Below are positions 13,361 to 24,628 of a stretch of DNA of 64,000 bases, piece after piece; position 1 is the stretch's first letter; every line of letters begins with the position of its first letter. A program made the position numbers and the translations under genes. The stretch lies in contig JAUIHT010000002.1 in the NCBI GenBank assembly GCA_030432235.1, forward strand, positions 62,001-126,000, in the 5' to 3' direction. The stretch comes from Verrucomicrobiia bacterium (GTDB taxonomy: Bacteria > Verrucomicrobiota > Verrucomicrobiia > Opitutales > Cerasicoccaceae). The notes beneath the pieces were generated by a model. The model had not been told where the DNA came from. It did not search any database and was given only the letters and a program-made list of their open reading frames with translations.

Positions 13361-15496
13361 TTACCGATTCAACATACGATCGATGACCGCGCGGGTGCGC
13401 AGGTAGTTCGGGTCCTGGGACATGGCGGGGGCGGCTTCGTCAAGGGCGACGGAGGCATCCTGCCAGCGGCCCAACTGCACGTAGGCCAGCGAGAGATTGT
13501 ACCAGGCGCGGTAGAAGTCAGGCGCAACCATGACGACATCCTCAAGCAGGGCCGCGGCCTCTTCCAGCCTCCCCTCCTCCGCGCGCAGGAGCGCGAGGCT
13601 GTAAAGCACATCGGGATTTTGCGGGGCGATATTGAGCGCGGTCTCGAGTGCCGCGCCTGCCTGGGTGTTATCTCCGAGCATGCTGTAAAGAATGGCGGCC
13701 CGGCGATGCACCTCGGCGTTGGCTCGATCCAGCGAGACAGCGAAGACAATGCGCTGCCGGGCGGTAGACTCGTCACCGGACTCGATAGCCTGCTGGGCCA
13801 GGACAAACATGTCCTGCGGGCGGTCCGCGTTGAACTCCAGGTAGGTCTGCCAATCCTTCTCGGCCTCGCCTTCGGGCAGGGTTTCCCCGCGCGAAACGAC
13901 CGACCGCGCTGCCGCGATGCGCACCTGCCGCACCGGGTCGGCAAGCCTGTCCATGAGCAGTGGCCCAACATCCGGCACGGGCGTCAGGGAGGTGACCGCC
14001 CGGGCACGCACCCAGGGGCTGTCATCGTCGAGTTGAGCGCGCAAATACGAGATGACATGCGGTTCGCCGAGGTAGTTGCCGAGGAGGCCGGTGTAGACCG
14101 CTTTCCAGGCCGGGATATCCTCGGAGGCGGCCAGCCGGAGCAGTGCTTCCGCGGCGGGCTCACCGGCATAGGCAGTTGCCAGGGCCCGAGCACGGGCGCG
14201 CTGGGGCTTGGTCGCCAGTTTTTCGCCGTACCAGGCCTCGGCGTGCTCCACCGCCCAGTCGAGCGACTCCTCCGCATGGCAGGTACTGCAGGCGTTGGGA
14301 ATGCCCAGCTCGCGCGTCATGAGCGGATCGGGCGAGAGAAAGCCATGGTCGCGACGCGGGTCGCGCTGCATGTAAGTGGTGTGGGGCATGTGGCAGTTGA
14401 TGCACAGATTGCCGGTGCTGCCCGCCGCGTGATAACTATGCGCCGTCTCCTGAATGATGGGCGCGTTATCCAGGCCGACACTGTGGCAGCGCATGCACAG
14501 GGAGTTGTTGGCGACCGGCAGGATAGTATCGCCGGAATGCGGATTATGGCAGTCCGCACAGGTCACCCCGGCGTGGCCCATGCGGCTCATCATGAAGCTG
14601 CCGTAGACAAAGTCCTCGTCGCGGATTTGCCCGTCCGGGTAGTACAAGCCCGGATGGTCCGGCAGGCTGAGGGCAAAGTGGTCGTCATAGGCATCGCCAG
14701 GACGAAAGGTGTCGGGGGTCAACTGCTCACGGCGTGAGTGACAGGTCGCGCAACTGGCCATGACGGCAGCCTCGTCGAGCACAAGCTTGCCCGGCTGGTA
14801 GTCCGGCAGGCGCGCCTCATGAACGTGTTCCATGAGACCGTCGTGGCATTGCGCGCAGGCGATGCCCTGCTGCAGCCAGGTGGAGTGGTAGGTCTCGGTG
14901 GCCGGATCGAAATCCTTCACGAACTCCGTCATGTGGCAGTAGGCACAGTTGGCGTTCCAGTTCATCCCCTGACCCGTCCAGTGCCCCCATTCGCCCGGCT
15001 GACGCCCGTCGGCGAAGACGTCGAACCACTCCTTCAGCTCCGGATCGTAGGCCAGACTGGTCGTCTGATACTGCCCCCGCTGGAAGGGAGCCAGGTACTG
15101 CCGCAAGGGCTTGTAAGCGATAACTCCGGCCAGAGGGTAAGTCCGCGTATGCCCGTCTCGGGTTTCCTGGAGGACAAAGCTGTCATCGAATCTTTCCAGC
15201 TTGTAGTCGACGCCCGGCTCCTCGTAGGTGCGGGCCGGCCAGAAGGCTGTCGTGTCCAACTGACGGGAAACCGGGCGATTGGCATGAGCATGATGGGAGC
15301 CTTTCCAGCTCTCGACAACGTCCGCGTGGCACTCGACACAGGCCTCGGGGCCGATAGCCGTGAGTCGCTCGTGGTCAAAAGTCTCGGGCATGGCAGCCAC
15401 TTCTTGCGGCTCTTTGGGCGGTTTTTCGGCTTCCTTGCCGCACCCGGCAAAAAGGACTACGATTGAAACGAGAATGCTGGCCCCAACACCCTTCAC
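13361..15496 (-). CDS. eight-haem c-type cytochrome lipoprotein with HEAT/TPR repeats
   Basis: 711 residues from a GTG start. A lipoprotein signal (VVLFAGC, Cys at about 19) is followed by eight CXXCH haem sites at about residues 53 (CVECH), 182 (CAYCH), 213 (CAQCH), 248 (CATCH), 312 (CADCH), 335 (CMRCH), 365 (CINCH) and 405 (CSTCH). The order and the 'ADCHNPHSG' and 'CHMPHTTY' surroundings resemble cytochrome c554-type multihaem proteins. About 430-545 is HEAT-like and 560-700 TPR-like (NPDVLYSLALLRAEEGRLEE). It should be an exported electron-transfer protein docking to partners through its repeats. Its start overlaps the stop of a chromate-transporter gene (GTGA), so it is likely the last gene of that operon. 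Confidence 0.88.
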   Translation of the reverse strand: MKGVGASILVSIVVLFAGCGKEAEKPPKEPQEVAAMPETFDHERLTAIGPEACVECHADVVESWKGSHHAHANRPVSRQLDTTAFWPARTYEEPGVDYKLERFDDSFVLQETRDGHTRTYPLAGVIAYKPLRQYLAPFQRGQYQTTSLAYDPELKEWFDVFADGRQPGEWGHWTGQGMNWNANCAYCHMTEFVKDFDPATETYHSTWLQQGIACAQCHDGLMEHVHEARLPDYQPGKLVLDEAAVMASCATCHSRREQLTPDTFRPGDAYDDHFALSLPDHPGLYYPDGQIRDEDFVYGSFMMSRMGHAGVTCADCHNPHSGDTILPVANNSLCMRCHSVGLDNAPIIQETAHSYHAAGSTGNLCINCHMPHTTYMQRDPRRDHGFLSPDPLMTRELGIPNACSTCHAEESLDWAVEHAEAWYGEKLATKPQRARARALATAYAGEPAAEALLRLAASEDIPAWKAVYTGLLGNYLGEPHVISYLRAQLDDDSPWVRARAVTSLTPVPDVGPLLMDRLADPVRQVRIAAARSVVSRGETLPEGEAEKDWQTYLEFNADRPQDMFVLAQQAIESGDESTARQRIVFAVSLDRANAEVHRRAAILYSMLGDNTQAGAALETALNIAPQNPDVLYSLALLRAEEGRLEEAAALLEDVVMVAPDFYRAWYNLSLAYVQLGRWQDASVALDEAAPAMSQDPNYLRTRAVIDRMLNR

Positions 15497-16029
15497 CGCA
15501 GAAATATCATTCCAGCGACCGCACCCATAAGCACCAGATAGGCAGGGTTGATACGCTTACCGCCATAGAAAAGCGTGACGAAAACAAGAACGGCCAGAAC
15601 AATGGTCTCCCAACCGAGAATGGCCGTACGCCCAATCGCAATAATCCCCGCGATCATGAGACCGACGACCAACGGCGCCATCCCTCGCTGGACTGACAGG
15701 CGCCAGGGGTTCGACTCAAAGTGGTCCCAAACCCGCGAAGTACCCCAGGCAATCAGAGCGCAAGGCGCGAAGAAACCGAAGAAAGCCACCAGCCCGCCCG
15801 GCACCCCGGCCACCTTGTAGCCGATAAGAATGACCATGAGCATGTTCGGCCCCGGCGCAATCTGACCGATGGAGTAAACATCGCGGAAGTCGTCCTGAGT
15901 GAGCCAGTGATGCTCCTCCGTGGTCAGCTTTTTCATCTCAGGCAACACTGCGGTGCCACCGCCCACCGCGAGGATGCTCAAGAGGCTGAAAACCGCCAGG
16001 ATGCTGAATATGGACCCTTCGTGGTGCAT
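15493..16029 (-). CDS. half-size chromate transporter (ChrA/CHR family), subunit 2
   Basis: 178 residues, five or six hydrophobic segments, one CHR domain. The family signature is clear: LAVGGGTAVLPEMKKL (about 20), SIGQIAPGPNMLMVILIGYK (about 53) and GGLVAFFGFFAPCALIAWG (about 78). Short-chain CHR proteins work as pairs of opposite membrane orientation and export chromate or move other oxyanions; the second partner lies just upstream (16113-16787). Translation is probably coupled to the multihaem cytochrome, whose GTG overlaps this stop. Many CHR family members do not confer chromate resistance, so the substrate is uncertain. Confidence 0.88.
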   Translation of the reverse strand: MHHEGSIFSILAVFSLLSILAVGGGTAVLPEMKKLTTEEHHWLTQDDFRDVYSIGQIAPGPNMLMVILIGYKVAGVPGGLVAFFGFFAPCALIAWGTSRVWDHFESNPWRLSVQRGMAPLVVGLMIAGIIAIGRTAILGWETIVLAVLVFVTLFYGGKRINPAYLVLMGAVAGMIFLR

Positions 16030-16030
16030 G

Positions 16031-16066
16031 TAGTAAGTGCTATGGTGCCTGGTGCTTAGTGCTTGG
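16031..16066. repeat. short-word repeat GTGC(T)TAGTGCTTGG
   Basis: TAGTAAGTGCTATGGTGCCT and GGTGCTTAGTGCTTGG repeat the word (T)GGTGCYT/TAGTGCTT every ten or so bases in the 83-base gap between the two chromate-transporter genes. Unlike the other word repeats in this window, no matching inverted arm was seen. Confidence 0.5.
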
Positions 16067-16112
16067 TTAAAAAGATATGGGGTGAGGGCGATTGAATACC
16101 TGAAATACTGCG

Positions 16113-16787
16113 CTAGTCGGCGGGTTTGCGATCTGTGCCCTGGTCGCCGGCCTTGAACTCCAGGCTGGGTCGCGGGCGATAGAGCAGAATGGCCACCGGG
16201 CCAACCGTCAGCAGCACGATAAGCAGCGAGACGTGTGCGAAGCTGACCAAGTAGATGGTCACCACGACAATGCCGAGGTCGAGAATGTGCTCCATCTGCT
16301 TGTGGCCGATCTGCAAGGTCACCGCGCTGAGCAACCCGACGGAGGCCGCGCCGACACCCTTGAGCGCCGCGTTGATATAGGTGTTGTGCGGGTTCTTGCC
16401 GTAGACGAAGCCGAGGATGAATACCAGGGTCGCCCCCGGCAGCGTCATACCGAGAAAGCCCAAGGCGGCACCCATGGGACCACGCAGGCGATCGCCCACA
16501 ATGACCGCCATGTTGGTCGCGTTCAGCCCCGGCAGAGCCTGGGAAATCTCCAGAGCCGCCATGAATTGCTCATCGTCCAGCCACGACTTTTGCGAGACGA
16601 GGCTGTTGCGCAAGTAAGCCACCACCCCGCCGCCGAAGCTAGTCGCGCCGATGACGAGAAAGGTCCAGAAAATCTCCCAGTACGGCACACGTTTGGCCCG
16701 CAAAGCCGCGGTCTCGTGAGCCGAAACCTCTTCCACGGACGCACTGACGGCCCCATAGACGGTAAGGGTTTTTCTGGATTTGCTCAC
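16113..16787 (-). CDS. half-size chromate transporter (ChrA/CHR family), subunit 1
   Basis: 224 residues. After about 30 hydrophilic residues, EIFWTFLVIGATSFGGGVVA (about 38) gives the CHR 'GxxxFGGG' motif. LEISQALPGLNATNMAVIVG (about 80) is the equivalent of the 'QxxPGPN' loop, and RGPMGAALGFLGMTLPGAT (about 103) is the third conserved stretch. A hydrophobic second half and a hydrophilic tail (FKAGDQGTDRKPAD) follow. It should pair with the downstream half-size protein. The start lies three bases after the stop of the CYTH-like gene, so these minus-strand genes (16791-17663, 16113-16787, 15493-16029, 13361-15496) look like one operon. Confidence 0.87.
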   Translation of the reverse strand: MSKSRKTLTVYGAVSASVEEVSAHETAALRAKRVPYWEIFWTFLVIGATSFGGGVVAYLRNSLVSQKSWLDDEQFMAALEISQALPGLNATNMAVIVGDRLRGPMGAALGFLGMTLPGATLVFILGFVYGKNPHNTYINAALKGVGAASVGLLSAVTLQIGHKQMEHILDLGIVVVTIYLVSFAHVSLLIVLLTVGPVAILLYRPRPSLEFKAGDQGTDRKPAD

Positions 16788-16790
16788 CGC

Positions 16791-17663
16791 CTATTCGTGA
16801 TTCTTGAGGGAATTGCCACCCATGCCATAAACCATGTAGGTCTTGGTCGTTCCGAGTTGAAGCCACTCGGGCGCTTCCGTTTGCAGGGTGATGAAAAAGG
16901 TGTCCGCCAGTTTCCGGGCCTTTTGATGGATATCATCGAGGCGGTCGAATTTGGCCTGGAAGGAAAACTCACCTACGAGAGAAGTCTCCGTCGCGCGGTT
17001 ACGCCAGATAGCGATGCCTGCCTTGGCTTCCAGACCATGGCCGAAATCAAAATGGCCCGGCGAGACCTCGACCTCGTTGACCCGCACCTCGTTGACCAAG
17101 TCGATCTTGGTGTTGGGCCGCACATCGATTTCTCCCAGACAAGGGAAGATTTTGGCAATGTCGGATAACGCCTGATCCAGCATGATGTTGGGCGTGGTGA
17201 GGATGCAGTTGTGCGAAAAAAGGCTGCGCATGCCGCCCACTTTGTCACGCAAAGGCAGCAGCTCCTCCTTGAACTTGATGCGCTCCGCCCCCTCCAACAG
17301 TGCGCGGACATCCGTCTCGGCCGCCTTGTTCATATCCTCGCTCCGGAACTTGAAGGCCAGCTCGTGGTCGATTTCAGGCCAGCCATCCACATAGTAGGTA
17401 CGCTTGCGCAGAATAAAACGGCGATTGTAGAGGTCGAACTTGTGCGTATCGAAAAACAGGACCTCGCGCACCGCGCGCTTAAAAGGGTGTTTTTCCATTC
17501 GGACCTTCACCCCGAGCTTCTTGGCTACTTTCTCAATAATTTCCCAATAGTACTCGTAGCCTTCGGGGCGGACAAAGTGGTCCGGCTTGAGAAGAATCTT
17601 ATACTCGAGGTAGTGAATCTGGTCGAGCGGATGCCCGTCGGAATATTCTTTAAGATCGGCCAT
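16791..17663 (-). CDS. CYTH-like (triphosphate tunnel fold?) protein
   Basis: 290 residues, no signal peptide. The order of charged strands resembles the CYTH/TTM fold: HYLEYKILLKPDHF (about 17-30, compare the ExExK motif, whose first Glu is missing here), REVLFFDTHKFDLYNRRFIL followed by RKR (about 67-90), and DHELAFKFRSEDMNKA (about 99). Late strands follow (ETSLVGEFSFQAKFDRLDD, about 225). CYTH proteins usually hydrolyse or make triphosphates or polyphosphate with divalent metal. Because the leading acidic motif is incomplete, this is an inference from pattern only. It begins the operon with the chromate-transporter halves and the multihaem cytochrome. Confidence 0.55.
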   Translation of the reverse strand: MADLKEYSDGHPLDQIHYLEYKILLKPDHFVRPEGYEYYWEIIEKVAKKLGVKVRMEKHPFKRAVREVLFFDTHKFDLYNRRFILRKRTYYVDGWPEIDHELAFKFRSEDMNKAAETDVRALLEGAERIKFKEELLPLRDKVGGMRSLFSHNCILTTPNIMLDQALSDIAKIFPCLGEIDVRPNTKIDLVNEVRVNEVEVSPGHFDFGHGLEAKAGIAIWRNRATETSLVGEFSFQAKFDRLDDIHQKARKLADTFFITLQTEAPEWLQLGTTKTYMVYGMGGNSLKNHE

Positions 17664-17705: not shown

Positions 17706-18539
17706 TCAATCCCGGAAAGCGTCCTTCATACAATTACAAAAGTGGGAACTACCCGCCCAATAACGAAGCGCCGGCATACGCGCCCCGAAAGTCTTCAGCG
17801 GAAACGGGGACGGTCCATCGAAGTGAAACTCCCCTCCCCCTGCCGCCATGAGGGCGTATCCCGCAGCCATGTCCCACACCTTGACCTTGAAATCAAGGCA
17901 GCCGTCCACCTTTCCGATGGCGGCGTAGGCGAGGTTGAGCGTGGCACTGCCGAACGCACGGCATCGGTACGTCTCCATCCAGGAGCGCAGCCGGATAAGG
18001 TCCTCGGGCGCCAGGGGAAAGGACAGCGCGGCTATGCTGCGTTTGGGATCCAGTGGAGCGGTCTCGCACCCGGCGCGCTGCCCGTCGTCACTGAGGCCAA
18101 AGCCGGGGCCACCCTCGATAAGGCAGTCGCGGGCAAAGTCGTAAACCAAGCCGTAGACGGGCTGCCCCTGGCGCAGAATGGCGAGGGAGATAGCGCATAA
18201 AGGCAAACCGAGGAAGTAGTTGTTCGTCCCGTCGATGGGATCGAGGACCCAGGCGAACTCCGCCTCGAGAGCCTGCTCTTCGTCGGGGGGATTACCCTCC
18301 TCGCTGCAAAAGTCGTCCTTGGGAAAACTGGCGCGCAGCTCGTGGAAAATCTTTTCCGAGATAGCAAAGTCGGCGAAGGTCACGCGGGTGTCATCCTCCT
18401 TCCATTCGCTGGAAACGTCCCCAAACTGCGACCGGAAGAGCCCGAGCTGGTTGCGCAGAGCCACACGCCCGGCGTTGATGCGGTGCCGCAGGGCCACCTC
18501 AACGCGGCTGCCCTTGGCCAGTTGTCCGTTAGATCCCAT
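17706..18539 (-). CDS. inositol monophosphatase-family phosphatase
   Basis: 277 residues, the family's usual length. The metal-site motifs are in order: FCSEEGNPPDEEQ (about 78, the Glu-Glu pair), AWVLDPIDGTNNYFLGLPLC (about 95, the D-P-(I/L)-D-G-T motif) and VKVWDMAAGYALMAAGGGEF (about 220, the W-D motif). Members dephosphorylate inositol phosphate, histidinol phosphate, fructose-1,6-bisphosphate or 3'-phosphoadenosine 5'-phosphate; which one applies here cannot be read. It lies 42 bases upstream of the CYTH-like gene on the same strand and may share its transcript. Confidence 0.88.
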   Translation of the reverse strand: MGSNGQLAKGSRVEVALRHRINAGRVALRNQLGLFRSQFGDVSSEWKEDDTRVTFADFAISEKIFHELRASFPKDDFCSEEGNPPDEEQALEAEFAWVLDPIDGTNNYFLGLPLCAISLAILRQGQPVYGLVYDFARDCLIEGGPGFGLSDDGQRAGCETAPLDPKRSIAALSFPLAPEDLIRLRSWMETYRCRAFGSATLNLAYAAIGKVDGCLDFKVKVWDMAAGYALMAAGGGEFHFDGPSPFPLKTFGARMPALRYWAGSSHFCNCMKDAFRD

Positions 18540-18691: not shown

Positions 18692-19942
18692 TCAACCTCC
18701 GGAGAGCTGCTGGATGATGCCGATAATCGGCAGGAACAGCGCGATGACGATGACACCGACGATAACGGCCAGTACCACAATCATGATCGGCTCGATGATG
18801 GAGGTCAGACTGGAGACCGCGTTGTCGACGTCTTCGTCGTAGTTGTCGGCGATGCGGTTAAGCATCTCTGCCAATTCACCGGTTTCCTCACCAACGTCGA
18901 TCATGGACGTGACCATGGTCGGGAAGACGCGCTGCTGCTCAAGCGGGGTGGCCAGAGGCTCACCGTCGCGGACACGGTCGTGGACCTTGTCCAGGGCCTG
19001 CTCGATAACGGAGTTACCGATAATTTCCTTGGTGATTTGGAGGGACTGCAGAATGGGCACGCCGGAAGAAAGGAGAGTGCCGAAAGTACGTGCGAAACGG
19101 GCAATAGCAGCCTTACCGAGAAGGTCACCCAGCTTGGGGGTGTGGAGGCCGAGCCAGTCCCAGGCACGCCGACCACCAGCAGTGTTCAAGGCAACCTTAA
19201 ACCCGATGAAGATAGCGATGACGATGCCAACGGTGATGATAATGTTATTCTGGATAAATTCGGAGAAGCCAATGACCCAGCGGGTCAAGGCCGGAAGCTG
19301 GGCACCACCGAGCATATCCTGGAAAATCTGCTGGAATCGCGGCACCACACCGATCATCAGGCCGACCACGATGGCCACCGCCACGGTGATAACCACAATC
19401 GGGTAAATCATGGCGGACTTGACCTTCTTCTTGGTCTTCAACGCCTTTTCCTGGAAGCGGGCCAAACGGGACAGAACCACATCGAGCACACCACCGGCCT
19501 CACCGGCACGCACCATGTTGACAAAGAGGCGGTCGAAGACCTTCGGGTGCTGGGCCAGGCCATCTGAAAAGTTGTTACCCGAACGTACGTTGTCGGCAAT
19601 CTGGCTGAGCACGTTCTTGAAAGCGGGCTTTTTCTCCTGTCGGATCATGACCTCAAGGCTGCGCAGCAGAGGCAGGCCGGCTTGCAACAGCGTGGCCAGC
19701 TGACGCGTGAAAACGGTCAATTCTTCCTGATTTACCACCTTGCCGAAAGAGAAACCGCCGCCCTTGCCTTTGGAGGGAGCCTTGCCGCCCGCTTTCTTAC
19801 CGCCGCCGTCGGCTATCAATTTATTGACCATCAGGCCCATGCTCGTGAGCTTGGCGTTGGCCTCCGCCTCGTTGGCGGCGTCTATTTTACCGGATTTTTC
19901 CTTACCGTTAGCGTCAATTGCGGAGTATCGAAACTTAGCCAT
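18692..19942 (-). CDS. pilC: type IV pilus inner-membrane platform protein PilC (GspF family)
   Basis: 416 residues. An N-terminal '[20 protein letters not shown]' stretch is typical of PilC/GspF. An insert rich in Gly/Lys (about 48-62) precedes two T2SSF domains (about 75-200 and 280-400). Each starts with a '[20 protein letters not shown]' or '[20 protein letters not shown]' helix, and membrane spans follow at about 175-200, 225-250 and 385-410. PilC joins the cytoplasmic ATPases to the pseudopilus and is needed for pilus growth and retraction. It is the last gene of the locus gspE-pilT-pilB-pilC and is followed by the terminator at 18584-18616. Confidence 0.93.
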
Positions 19943-20063
19943 GATGGAGCAACAATGGGTTCAGGGTCAGTTTAAAGAGGATTGAATTAGGAAAGTAAGA
20001 ACAGAAGCAGCCTAACAGACAACAAGGAATTTCGTCGTCAGCAAGCAGCTCCAAAACGCGTTA

Positions 20064-21758
20064 TCAGGTGTATTTTAACACTTCCTCGATGGTGGTTGCG
20101 CCGTCAAAAATCGAACGCAGGCCGTCATCCCGGAGTGTGCGCATGCCCTGTTCGAGGGCTTTTTGCTTGAGCACGAGGGTCGGGGCCTTGTTGGTGATGA
20201 GCTCGCGGATGGAGTCGCTGATCATCATCATTTCAAAAAGCCCCTGCCGTCCACGGTATCCGGTTTGGCTGCATTCGGCGCAGCCTTTGCCGTAGTAGAA
20301 CGACTTGTCGGCGATTTCGATGGGATCGGCTCCGAGCATTTCGATGACCTCCGTGTCGGGCTCATAGGCGGTCTTGCAGGTCGGGCAAATGCGGCGCACG
20401 AGGCGCTGGCCGAGCACCCCTTCGACGGAGGCGGAGATAAGGAAAGGCTCCAGACCCATATCGATGAGACGGGTAATCGCACCGGGGGCGTCATTGGTGT
20501 GGAGAGTGCTGAGCACGACGTGACCGGTCAGCGAGGCCTGCACAGCAATCTGCGCCGTTTCGATATCGCGAATCTCACCGACCATGATCTTGTCGGGGTC
20601 CTGACGGAGGAAAGAGCGCAGGGCGGCGGCGAAGGTCAGACCAACTTGGTGGTTGATGGCCACCTGCATAATGCCGTCGATTTCGTATTCCACCGGGTCC
20701 TCGGCGGTCAGAATCTTAATCTCGGTCTTGTTGACCTCGCGCAGGGCCGAATAAAGCGTGGTGGTCTTGCCGGAGCCGGTCGGCCCGGTGACGATGAAAA
20801 TACCGTTGGGGCGGGCCACCAGGTCGCGAATGTTCTGCAGGACGTCGTCCGGCATGGAAAGCTGTTCGAGGTCGAGGTTGACCACGGACTTGTCCAGAAC
20901 GCGCAAAACCACGGATTCACCGAACTGGGTAGGCAGAGTCGATACACGCAGGTCCACGGGACGTCCGGCAATGGTCATCTTGATACGACCGTCCTGAGGG
21001 ATGCGGCGCTCGGCGATGTTCAGGTTAGACAGCACCTTGACGCGGGAAATAACCGGTGTGGCGAGGTTCTTGGGCGGCGGCGCCATTTCGTAGAGCGCAC
21101 CGTCAATGCGGTAACGCATGCGGAACTGGTCCTCGAAAGGCTCAAAGTGAATGTCGGAGGCCTTGTCCCGGATGGCCTGCTGGAGCACCAGATTGACGAA
21201 ACGAATAATGGGCGTCTCGTTGGCAAGGTTGGTCAACTCCGCCTCGGACATATCCTCGCCGGTTTCGGCCACCGGCTCACTGCCCCGGATTTCGTCGAGC
21301 AGGTCGTCGATGGAGGAGTCCTCGTCGCCGTAATTGGTGGTCAGAAGGCTGTCGAGGTAATCCGGGTCGGTCACGACGAGATTGATGTCCTTGCTCAGCG
21401 AGAAGGTCAGGTCGTCGATGATGTTGTTGTTAAAGGGGTCCTTAGCGAGCAGGTCAACGGAATGGTCGTCGACGCGCACGGGCACGACGGCATACATGCG
21501 GGCCACGGCGGGCTTGATGGCGCGCACAATGTGGTCCTCGATTCCCTGAGGCGGGACGGGCATGTACTCGTACTGCAGGTAGTCGGCGACCAACTGCAGG
21601 AGTTGGCCGCGCTCAATCAGCCCGGAGTCGATGGACTCATCGGCCAGCGACTTACCGGTATTGATATGCGCCGTGTTAATATCCTCGAGCTGGGCGTGGT
21701 CCAGCTCGCCGCTCTGCTCGAGAATTTCGTAAATGGTGTCGTTATGGTCTTCAAACAT
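20064..21758 (-). CDS. pilB: type IV pilus/type II secretion ATPase (PilB/GspE family), second copy
   Basis: 564 residues. The N-terminal MshEN/GspE-N domain (about 1-150) is followed by an acidic linker and the ATPase core. Walker [11 protein letters not shown] is at about 320, the Asp box [14 protein letters not shown] at about 345 and the Walker B region [20 protein letters not shown] at about 390. The zinc-binding C-x2-C...C-x2-C ([11 protein letters not shown] and [12 protein letters not shown]) is at about 455-495. It should power pilus assembly by driving PilC. It is a paralogue of the protein at 22895-24628 and lies between pilT and pilC, the usual place of pilB. Confidence 0.93.
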
Positions 21759-21781
21759 GCTGACGAGACGGGGAAGGTGGG

Positions 21782-22855
21782 TTAGCCATGACTGCTCAGG
21801 GCCTGCACTTTGTTACGCATTTCTTCGGGAATTTGCGACTTTTCGATGCAGGTCTCAGCCGTAATCAAGCCGCGGTTGAAAAGGTTCAGGAGGTGGGCAT
21901 CGAGGGAAATCATGCCGAGATTGGCGCCGGTCTGGATATCGGAGTTGAGGCGGTAGGTCTTGTTCTCGCGGATAAGCGCCGAGATGGAATCCGTCGTGAC
22001 CATGATCTCGTAAGAGGCGATGCGGCCGCCTCCGACTTTCTTGCACAACACCTGCGAGATGACCGCCACGATGGAAGAAGCCAACTGGGTGCGAATCTGG
22101 TCCTTGGTATCGGCGGGAAAGGCGTCCACGATACGGTCGACGGTACGGGCGGCCCCGGTGGTGTGGAGCGTCCCAAAGACGAGGTGGCCGGTTTCAGCAG
22201 CGGAGACGGCGGCCTCAATGGTTTCCAGGTCACGCATTTCACCGACGAGAATAATGTCGGGGTCCTGGCGCAACGCACCGCGAATGGCGGAAGCAAAAGT
22301 GGGAACATCCACGCCAACTTCCCGCTGGGTGACAAGGCAACGCTTGTGCTCGTGGTAATACTCGATCGGATCCTCGATGGTGATGATGTGACCATCGGTG
22401 TTTTCGTTGATCCAATTGATCATCGAGGCCAGCGTGGTCGACTTACCCGAGCCGGTCGGCCCGGTAACGAGGATGAGCCCGCGGGGGCGTGTCAGCAGGT
22501 CGCGCACTTTGTCCGGCAGACCGATTTCGCGCAGGCCGAACATCTTGTTGGGAATCTGGCGCAGCACCATGCCGTAGTTGCCCTTGGCCTTGAGCACGGA
22601 GACACGGAAGCGCGCCAGGTCCATGAAAGCGAAGCCGAAGTCCGCCCCACCCCCGGTCTTGATCTTTTGCTGATGAGCGTCGGAGGTGATGGCCTTCATC
22701 AGGTTCTCAGTATCCTCCGGGGTAAGATCCGGCCCGTCCACCGGCACCATGGAGCCGCCCGTGCGCAATGTGGGAGGCTGACCGACCTGCAAGTGCAAAT
22801 CACTGGCACCCTCATCGACCATGAGGTTGAGCAAATCGTTCATTTCGTAGCTCAT
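21782..22855 (-). CDS. pilT: type IV pilus retraction ATPase PilT
   Basis: 357 residues, the standard PilT length. N-terminal [20 protein letters not shown] is the PAS-like domain start. Walker [21 protein letters not shown] is at about 130, the Asp box [20 protein letters not shown] at about 158 and the Walker B region [19 protein letters not shown] at about 195. The diagnostic late loop appears here as [20 protein letters not shown] (compare the AIRNLI motif region). PilT disassembles the pilus and drives twitching motility. It sits 39 bases after the first PilB-like gene and 23 bases before the second. Confidence 0.95.
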
Positions 22856-22894
22856 CGGTGCGTTATGGTTGAAGGTGGACGGTCAGGTAAACCT

Positions 22895-24628
22895 TTAGGC
22901 GATGGAATCGGAAACGGTGACGTGGAGGACCTCCTCGACGGTTGTCATGCCGGCAAAGACCTTGCGCCAGCCGTCTTCACGCATGTTGCGCATGCCGCCC
23001 TCGCGGGCTTTGGTACGCAACTCGACCAGGGTGCGGCCCTCGTAGATCATCTGCTGGATCTCCTCGGTGATAACGAACATCTCGAAGATGCCCAAGCGGC
23101 CCTTGAAGCCGGTGCCGTTGCACTTGGGGCAACCTTCACCAGTATAGAAGGTGGCGTCGGTCATCTTGCCCTGGGCCGCCGCACCCATGGAGTTGACCTC
23201 CTGCGGCGAAGGCACGTAGGGCTTTTTGCAGTTCGAGCAAATGCGACGTACGAGGCGCTGAGCCAGCGCACCGCGAAGAGAGGCAGAAACCAGGAACGGC
23301 TTCACCCCGATATCGACCAGACGGGTCACCGCGCTAGGGGCATCGTTGGTGTGCAGGGTACTGAACACCATGTGACCGGTCAGCGAGGCATTGACGGCGA
23401 TTTCGGCGGTCTCCAAGTCTCGAATCTCACCGACCATGATGATATTCGGGGCCTGGCGCAGCATGGAGCGCAGGGCCGCGGCGAAGGTCATGCCGACGTC
23501 CTTGCGGACCTGCACCTGGTTGATGCCGGTCATCTGATACTCCACCGGGTCCTCAACCGTGATGATCTTGCGGTCCGGGTGGTTGATGTAATTGAGCGCC
23601 GAGTAAAGCGTGGTGGACTTACCCGAACCGGTCGGCCCGGTGACCAGGAAGATGCCGTCCGGCTGCGAGACGAGCCGCTCGAAGGTGGCCTGGTCGTCGC
23701 TGAAAAAGCCCAGTTGCGGAAGACCGAGGTTGAGGCCCTCCTTGTCCAGAATACGCATGACGATCGACTCACCGAAAACGGTGGGCAGACAGGAGACACG
23801 CAAGTCGATATCCTTGGTGCTGGCCTTCATCTGGATACGACCGTCCTGCGGGATGCGCTTTTCGGCGATGGAGATGTTGGCCATCAGCTTGAGGCGCGAA
23901 ATGATGGACGGCTGCAGGCGCTTGGGCGGATTTTCCACCTCCATCAGCACACCGTCGATGCGGTAGCGGACGCGGAAGCGCTTTTCCAAAGGCTCCAGAT
24001 GAATGTCCGAGGCGCGGCGCTTGATGGCCTCGGTAATCAGCATGTGCACATAGCGGATGATGGGGGCTTCTTCCTGCTTGGTGCCCTCCTCATTGCCCGT
24101 GGGCAGCTCTATTTGCAGGTCAGCGTCTTCGGCCAGCTCGCCGTAGATGCCCTCCATGCCCTCGGCCTGAGGGCCTTCGTAATACTGATTGATGGCAGTC
24201 TCGATCTCTTCCCGCGTGGCCAGACGGGTGTTAATCGTGATCTTGAGGACGTGGCTGAGGCTGTCGATGGCATCCACATCGAGCGGGTCAGCCGTGGCCA
24301 GCTCTAGCTGGTGGCCGTCGATCTCGATGGGAAAGACATGGTAGCGCTGCGCTAAATCGCGCGGCAGCTTTTCAAGAGCCTCGTGGGAGACGCGGATATC
24401 ATCCAGGTCCACCACCTCCATGTTAAACTCATCGGCAAGGGCCTCAACGATGTCCGGTTTGGTGACGAGAGACTTGCCCACCAACAGCTCGATGATGGCA
24501 GCGTCCTCGCCGCTTTCCGGCGTTTCGTCGGAGGCCTCGACCTGCAGGCGAGCCTGATTGACATCAGACTCGGAGACCAGACCGCGGTCCTGGATGAGTT
24601 GGATTACAAAGTCGTCGGCGGAAGTCAC
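22895..24628 (-). CDS. type IV pilus/type II secretion ATPase (PilB/GspE family), first copy
   Basis: 577 residues from a GTG start at 24628; no better ATG precedes the N-terminal domain. The two-part N-terminal MshEN domain (about 1-150) has the '[20 protein letters not shown]' and '[13 protein letters not shown]' repeats. Walker [21 protein letters not shown] is at about 331, the Asp box [20 protein letters not shown] at about 355, and zinc Cys pairs [13 protein letters not shown] and [12 protein letters not shown] at about 460-505. It is an intact extension-type ATPase, paralogous to 20064-21758. One copy may drive the pilus and the other a type II-like secretion system; the secretin at 63.6 kb fits either. 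Confidence 0.92.

Follow-up and report, generated by a model that had tools for sequence, protein, structure and literature searches.

A predicted tunnel-fold protein and two CHR transporter halves are inherited as a unit of three genes across distantly related bacteria

CHR transporters are usually regarded as chromate pumps that work by themselves, and the tunnel fold is usually regarded as that of soluble triphosphatases. Here we describe a locus that joins the two in a Verrucomicrobiia bacterium (assembly GCA_030432235.1, contig JAUIHT010000002.1, positions 62,001 to 126,000 of the forward strand, a stretch of 64,000 nucleotides that we call the window). A gene for a protein with a predicted tunnel fold is followed directly by genes for two CHR transporter halves, and these three genes are inherited as a unit in distantly related bacteria. 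In the window, a fourth gene for an octahaem lipoprotein stands behind the unit:

13361-15496, minus strand: octahaem lipoprotein with a HEAT and TPR tail, 711 residues, outside the conserved unit (eight CXXCH motifs, Pfam, distribution)
15493-16029, minus strand: CHR transporter half 2 (short-chain CHR), 178 residues, gene 3 of the unit (PF02417, 138.1 bits; clade of 29 rows, 100/99)
16113-16787, minus strand: CHR transporter half 1 (short-chain CHR), 224 residues, gene 2 of the unit (PF02417, 128.7 bits; clade of 29 rows, 100/99)
16791-17663, minus strand: protein with a predicted tunnel fold (TTM/CYTH-like), 290 residues, gene 1 of the unit (predicted fold, 35-row alignment)

The spacing along this row is 3, 83 and -4 bases. 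A preliminary description, made from the sequence, gave the same four genes, the same spacing and the eight CXXCH motifs, and all of these proved correct. It had also recognized a pair of transporter halves; each indeed carries a single PF02417 domain well over the cut-off of 28.6 bits, and their lengths and paired genes make them short-chain CHR (SCHR) proteins. Putative promoter sites (2, against 1.2 in shuffled sequence) and terminator-like sites (6, against 5.4) did not exceed chance.

Occurrence and inheritance of the three-gene unit

A draw of 384 genomes from the class contained 23 with the tunnel protein, and the CHR pair lies directly downstream in the same order in 20 of these carriers, the window's genome among them; in one (G208), half 2 runs into the contig end. 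A profile of CHR half 1 scored at least 266 bits in 20 genomes of this draw and 178.7 bits in the next, and these 20 are exactly the genomes with the tunnel unit. Among named genomes, the pair was present at 20 of 23 tunnel-gene loci, comprising six from Chromatiaceae (Thiobaca, Thiocapsa and Thiocystis), one from a Lentisphaerae bin and 13 from Verrucomicrobiota. Eight of these 20 repeat proteins already counted, which gives 32 distinct units. A further draw of 387 genomes from the phylum contained six carriers, of which the single new one (G681) is the same Lentisphaerae contig. The distribution is patchy and crosses phyla. In their last 200 residues, the tunnel proteins of G296 (L047), a genome of the class, and of a Chthoniobacterales bin (L060) are identical. 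We also observed an orphan tunnel gene (L076:3280-6577) that has no CHR pair and is followed by an HsdM gene.

To place the transporter halves, we used a CHR tree of 29 of the 32 distinct units (those of G208, G296 and G326 were left out) and 21 other CHR loci, all from the window's order and among them the fused CHR of the host itself. Each half of the 29 units formed one clade (100/99) apart from the 21 other loci, and all 29 units have two separate CHR domains in order. The tunnel-protein tree contained the same main groups as the trees of the CHR halves. Distance matrices of the three proteins were closely correlated (r of 0.93 for the tunnel protein and half 1, 0.965 for the tunnel protein and half 2, and 0.949 for the two halves), and none of 2000 permutations gave correlations as high. 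In none of the three trees did the G002 unit fall inside the window's group, and therefore the window's family has probably received the unit twice, as judged from these phylogenies; the placing of the G002 unit inside its own group is modestly supported. Two other CHR loci were noted. The second CHR of the window's genome, G000, is a fused 412-residue frame (contig C39:441814-442959; L002, L004) that belongs to a different clade from the unit, and a genome that has no tunnel protein carries a CHR pair in two frames (L122; G041 contig C87:58000-64000) that groups with other CHRs and not with the unit.

The PF02417 matches could also be explained by an ordinary short-chain efflux pair that, with an accessory protein, confers resistance to chromate or another oxyanion. 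Bacillus subtilis short-chain CHR pairs are listed as conferring chromate resistance in the title of a reference cited in PMC8940164, and YwrA/YwrB-type pairs likewise consist of two adjacent PF02417 proteins with one domain each. Unlike that type, the halves described here form their own clade and always occur with a tunnel gene in the class draw. They also fall below the cut-offs of the NCBIfam chromate-efflux models, scoring 48.7 and 56.5 bits against a cut-off of 250 and 84.3 and 95.2 against 171.7. No resistance or metal genes were present among the few unit neighbors scanned, ten of which were covered in one scan. We regard a role in chromate or oxyanion resistance as decidedly unlikely.

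Predicted fold and residues of the tunnel protein

The tunnel-protein family is missed by the family libraries used. The 290-residue protein has no Pfam or NCBIfam match over cut-off, PF01928 (CYTH) gave no match at E <= 10 in the three family members scanned, and PF09359 (VTC) gave no match to the tunnel protein at E <= 10. Three PDB sequence searches produced nothing convincing (best E values of 0.33 and 0.048, and no match in the third). We modeled the structure with AlphaFold2 from 35 members, and this model (pLDDT 87.7, pTM 0.86) superseded an earlier one from three sequences (pLDDT 64.7). The best Foldseek match to the model is a TTM protein (E 2.7e-8, probability 1.00, TM-scores 0.42/0.54), and AtTTM3 was matched with an E value of 1.1e-7. 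Rows 1-35 of this search are of TTM, CYTH or VTC type, some by their titles and others because we take them to have the tunnel fold; row 36 is an RNA-editing subunit. Structural comparison with VIA gave a Z score of 11.9 for ygiF (3.9 A over 199 residues) and 8.6-9.1 for Vtc2/Vtc4, with Mediator head subunits likewise at 8-9.

Profile comparisons favored VTC and TTM3, at probabilities of only approximately 20%. The tunnel family scored 32.4 against VTC (seven proteins; hhalign probability 21.7%) and 30.6 against TTM3, and each score exceeded all 100 of 100 column-shuffled controls. The class-IV CYTH proteins of relatives were rejected as profile kin, because 61 of 100 shuffles scored as high. 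From the model, the protein is predicted to have the eight-stranded TTM/CYTH tunnel fold. The CYTH-like tunnel protein of the preliminary description is thereby upheld by predicted fold, and not by the Pfam, NCBIfam or PDB sequence searches.

We examined conserved residues in an alignment of 35 members, which leaves out duplicates, a near-copy (L042), a member interrupted by a stop codon (L049/L078) and a fragment (L057). Eleven basic residues are invariant: K22, R66, R86, R88, K105, R107, K130, K132, R221, R223 and K274. The family also shares the FFDT...LRxR and TTK motifs with TTM enzymes (triphosphate tunnel metalloenzymes, such as AtTTM3 and E. coli ygiF). The tunnel protein is longer than these (290 compared to approximately 210 residues). 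The hallmark of CYTH proteins is ExExK, according to an excerpt of PMC8233210. In the tunnel family this motif is not intact, because the first Glu is replaced by Tyr or Phe; the sequence is [YF]xExK in 34 of 35 rows and FxQxK in the remaining one (L037). If the ends of the VIA rows for AtTTM3 are ungapped, then Y18, E20, K22 and K274 lie on E2, E4, K6 and K200 of AtTTM3. The VIA row for ygiF begins at model residue 9 and ygiF residue 0, and needs an N-terminal gap, unlike the rows for AtTTM3 and Vtc4. The presumed last strand, GEFxFQxKF, shows no sign of the metal-binding ExE, with a register that neither global nor C-terminal profile alignments fixed, and the strand matched to E90 of AtTTM3 reads KFK followed by Glu. 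As described in part of PMC4641920, residues E2, E4, E90 and E171 of AtTTM3 make up an acidic patch in which a second metal is bound, and Vtc4 has basic residues at the same place and is missing the second metal site. Because the basic residues are invariant and the acidic motifs incomplete, the tunnel protein appears to have kept ligand binding and has probably lost two-metal hydrolysis.

Alternatively, the tunnel protein could be an active tri- or pyrophosphatase whose product or substrate is moved by the CHR pair, with no gating of the transporter. The TTM fold, the intact basic residues and the one ExExK Glu that is kept in nearly all members fit such an enzyme, and plant TTM1/2 use pyrophosphate in spite of having no hallmark motif, as stated in PMC8233210. 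The first ExExK Glu is nonetheless Tyr or Phe, the last strand shows no ExE, and the account in PMC4641920, as far as it was available, has changes at such residues lowering the activity of AtTTM3 and ygiF. An active phosphohydrolase is unlikely on this evidence, and yet it is the alternative we take most seriously.

The octahaem lipoprotein

The 711-residue protein contains eight CXXCH motifs, compared to a mean of 0.0145 and a maximum of 2 across 10,000 residue shuffles. It has a lipobox-like FAGC and Pfam matches to HEAT and TPR, and its multiple CXXCH motifs together with the export signal qualify it as a multihaem c-type cytochrome. It resembles the multihaem cytochrome 6i5b, which we take to be OcwA (the database title reads uncharacterized protein), over approximately 105 residues of the haem region (E 6.9e-11). 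Unlike 6i5b, it is a lipoprotein with a HEAT and TPR tail, and this arrangement is common in the phylum.

The preliminary description had called the HEAT/TPR fusion unusual, which our searches contradict. Matches to the cytochrome at E <= 1e-30 were found in 48 of 132 relatives and in 43 of 145 genomes drawn from the phylum (G000 counted in both), and a single match reaches residue 655 or beyond of 711 in 45 of these relatives and in 41 of these phylum genomes. In the same 132 relatives, again with G000, the tunnel protein is present in three and PF02417 in 44 (41 over cut-off). We viewed the cytochrome genes of 19 relatives; every one has eight CXXCH motifs, and the neighbors of these genes differ. 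The HEAT/TPR-tailed octahaem lipoprotein is an ordinary, widespread gene in the phylum. Two of the cytochrome matches are interrupted, one by two internal stops (G056 contig C19:97234-99291) and one by a single stop (G094 contig C1:2739936-2741927), and may be decayed genes or sequence errors.

The preliminary description had also proposed that all four genes form an unrecognized system for oxyanion redox and transport, in which the cytochrome would act outside the cell on the transported anion. CHR half 2 and the cytochrome gene do overlap by 4 bases, and G001 carries all four genes in the same order. Against this, an open reading frame with eight motifs lies near the tunnel gene in only two of 39 stretches, the window and G001 (some stretches repeat a locus); L079 has a frame with three CXXCH motifs that overlaps other open frames. 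In G002 the first three genes stand together and the cytochrome is approximately 820 kb distant, and the seven other family members (G003-G009) all have the cytochrome with neither the tunnel protein nor a PF02417 match. Because of this distribution and its varied neighbors, we conclude that the cytochrome is a common gene that came to lie behind the unit in one lineage only, and is a bystander. It was accordingly rejected as a member of the system. Genes scattered in relatives were to count against the proposal, and the cytochrome gene fits that pattern, whereas the other three genes do not. The four-gene system is thus largely refuted and barely credible, and no support was found for a redox role or for any particular oxyanion; what survives of the proposal is the tunnel protein and CHR halves as an apparent transport unit.

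Related designs, neighboring genes and a possible function

Related loci show that a soluble phosphate-chemistry protein before a split transporter is a repeated design, as seen in two other arrangements. In the first, the partner of the CHR pair is different. The next tier of CHR matches (121.8-178.7 bits, 24 loci) is also a split pair, and a PLD-like protein (PF13091) lies directly before it in all 23 loci examined (L158-L180; G391 was left out, Pfam was run on five and tblastn was also used). Four lower-scoring CHR loci (L181-L184) had no PLD partner. Two of the PLD partners were read by eye and have HxKxxxxD motifs, and this possible enzyme in the equivalent position lends some weight to an active phosphohydrolase in the tunnel unit. 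A weak PP_kinase_C match, below cut-off, fits the shared PLD fold and we do not count it as evidence of a polyphosphate kinase. The tunnel unit and the PLD unit coexist in five genomes (G197, G267, G309, G331 and G387). In the second arrangement, the transporter is different. Four divergent tunnel proteins form one clade (100/100), and a FUSC_2/ArAE half-transporter gene lies directly downstream in three of their four loci, L055 being the exception:

L056:1426-2933: divergent tunnel gene and FUSC_2 half
L079:5890-7946: divergent tunnel gene and FUSC_2 half
L080:5890-7414: divergent tunnel gene and FUSC_2 half

Other genes stand next to individual units. An inositol-monophosphatase-family gene lies 42 bases upstream of the window's tunnel gene; in G001, G002 and the other mapped loci, this gene does not directly precede the unit. 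In three of the six Chromatiaceae units, all from Thiocapsa, an alpha-carbonic anhydrase gene is directly upstream on the same strand. None of the other loci examined has this gene, and so it was not used as a clue to bicarbonate.

17706-18539, minus strand: inositol-monophosphatase-family gene (PF00459, 126.6 bits)
L059:3346-4113: alpha-carbonic anhydrase gene
L065:4932-5783: alpha-carbonic anhydrase gene
L066:4952-5791: alpha-carbonic anhydrase gene

Downstream of the Lentisphaerae unit is a PLD gene whose product is 25% identical to a PLD partner over part of its length; we set it aside. Farther along the window (18692-24628, minus strand), some genes resemble, as read by eye, parts of a type IV pilus or type II secretion system (PilC-, PilB- and PilT-like). 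An IS1595-type transposase gene (L058:5253-5873) lies directly upstream of one Chromatiaceae unit and is a possible mark of transfer.

The patchy, cross-phylum spread would also suit a mobile module that protects against phage or other stress. This transposase, the orphan tunnel gene beside HsdM and the matches of the PLD partners to DrmC profiles are in keeping with such a role. The DrmC matches may, however, reflect the shared PLD domain alone, and no PADLOC model was matched at E <= 0.01 by the tunnel protein, the CHR halves or the FUSC half, so that the scan offers little for defense. Most of the neighbors scanned are ordinary or of unassigned kind. A plasmid search gave no match, and two stretches fit a pattern for viral relatives of the tunnel protein, neither of which was confirmed. 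We consider a defense module very improbable.

The function that we favor, which we hold to be quite possible if somewhat short of probable, is that the tunnel protein binds a phosphate ligand and, as the partner of an anion transporter with two subunits, controls or loads it. The two short CHR proteins, each corresponding to half of a long ChrA, would assemble into this transporter in the inner membrane. The tunnel protein is taken to be a soluble cytoplasmic partner because it has no hydrophobic stretch on the Kyte-Doolittle (KD) scale. Its basic tunnel would bind a negatively charged phosphate ligand, such as tri- or polyphosphate or nucleotide phosphates, and the protein, docked on the CHR pair, would gate, load or drive the transporter, acting by control rather than hydrolysis on whichever anion is the substrate. 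The data show genetic linkage, seen in gene order, strict co-occurrence and co-inheritance, and a predicted fold with its basic residues intact and its acidic motifs incomplete. These speak for the proposal, as does the recurrence of the design with other kinds of transporter genes.

Several observations weigh against this proposal. The CHR pair is missing in three of the 23 class carriers, namely G135 (divergent, no adjoining transporter), G394 (divergent, FUSC adjoining) and G346 (a fragment), and at three of the 23 named loci; therefore the tunnel protein can exist without the pair. One of the 20 class units (G326) has a stop codon inside the tunnel gene. The Foldseek TM-scores are moderate even for the best match, the profile probabilities are low (approximately 20%), and the comparison CHRs in the tree were drawn from the window's order only.

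A bolder version would make the unit a bacterial counterpart of the eukaryotic VTC complex, in which the tunnel subunit makes or threads a phosphate polymer through the CHR pair, or acts as a driving switch by binding triphosphate. The VTC complex of yeast has a tunnel enzyme positioned at the opening of a membrane channel, which the enzyme feeds, as PMC9911596 describes; this complex serves as a model for the idea, not as evidence. In addition to the VIA scores and the local profile match, the tunnel protein resembles VTC in having basic rather than acidic residues in part of the tunnel and in its genetic link to a membrane anion path. It differs in that it has no PF09359 match, SPX domain or membrane domain, and the membrane part is CHR rather than VTC helices. 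By this analogy a VTC-like function may be imagined, and we rate it as improbable.

Each part of the unit is of a known kind, and the combination, its strictness and the sister forms appear undescribed in the literature searched. There we found no paper joining CYTH and chromate transporter, or CYTH domain and ChrA, and nothing on a tunnel-CHR unit or the octahaem lipoprotein. The occurrence of a strict tunnel-CHR unit in three phyla suggests that part of the large, poorly understood CHR family operates together with soluble proteins able to bind phosphate ligands, and the unit offers a direct way to approach the natural role of one CHR clade. If the comparison with VTC were true, tunnel-CHR, PLD-CHR and tunnel-FUSC would represent a broader class, in which transporters are coupled to soluble partners in phosphate chemistry.

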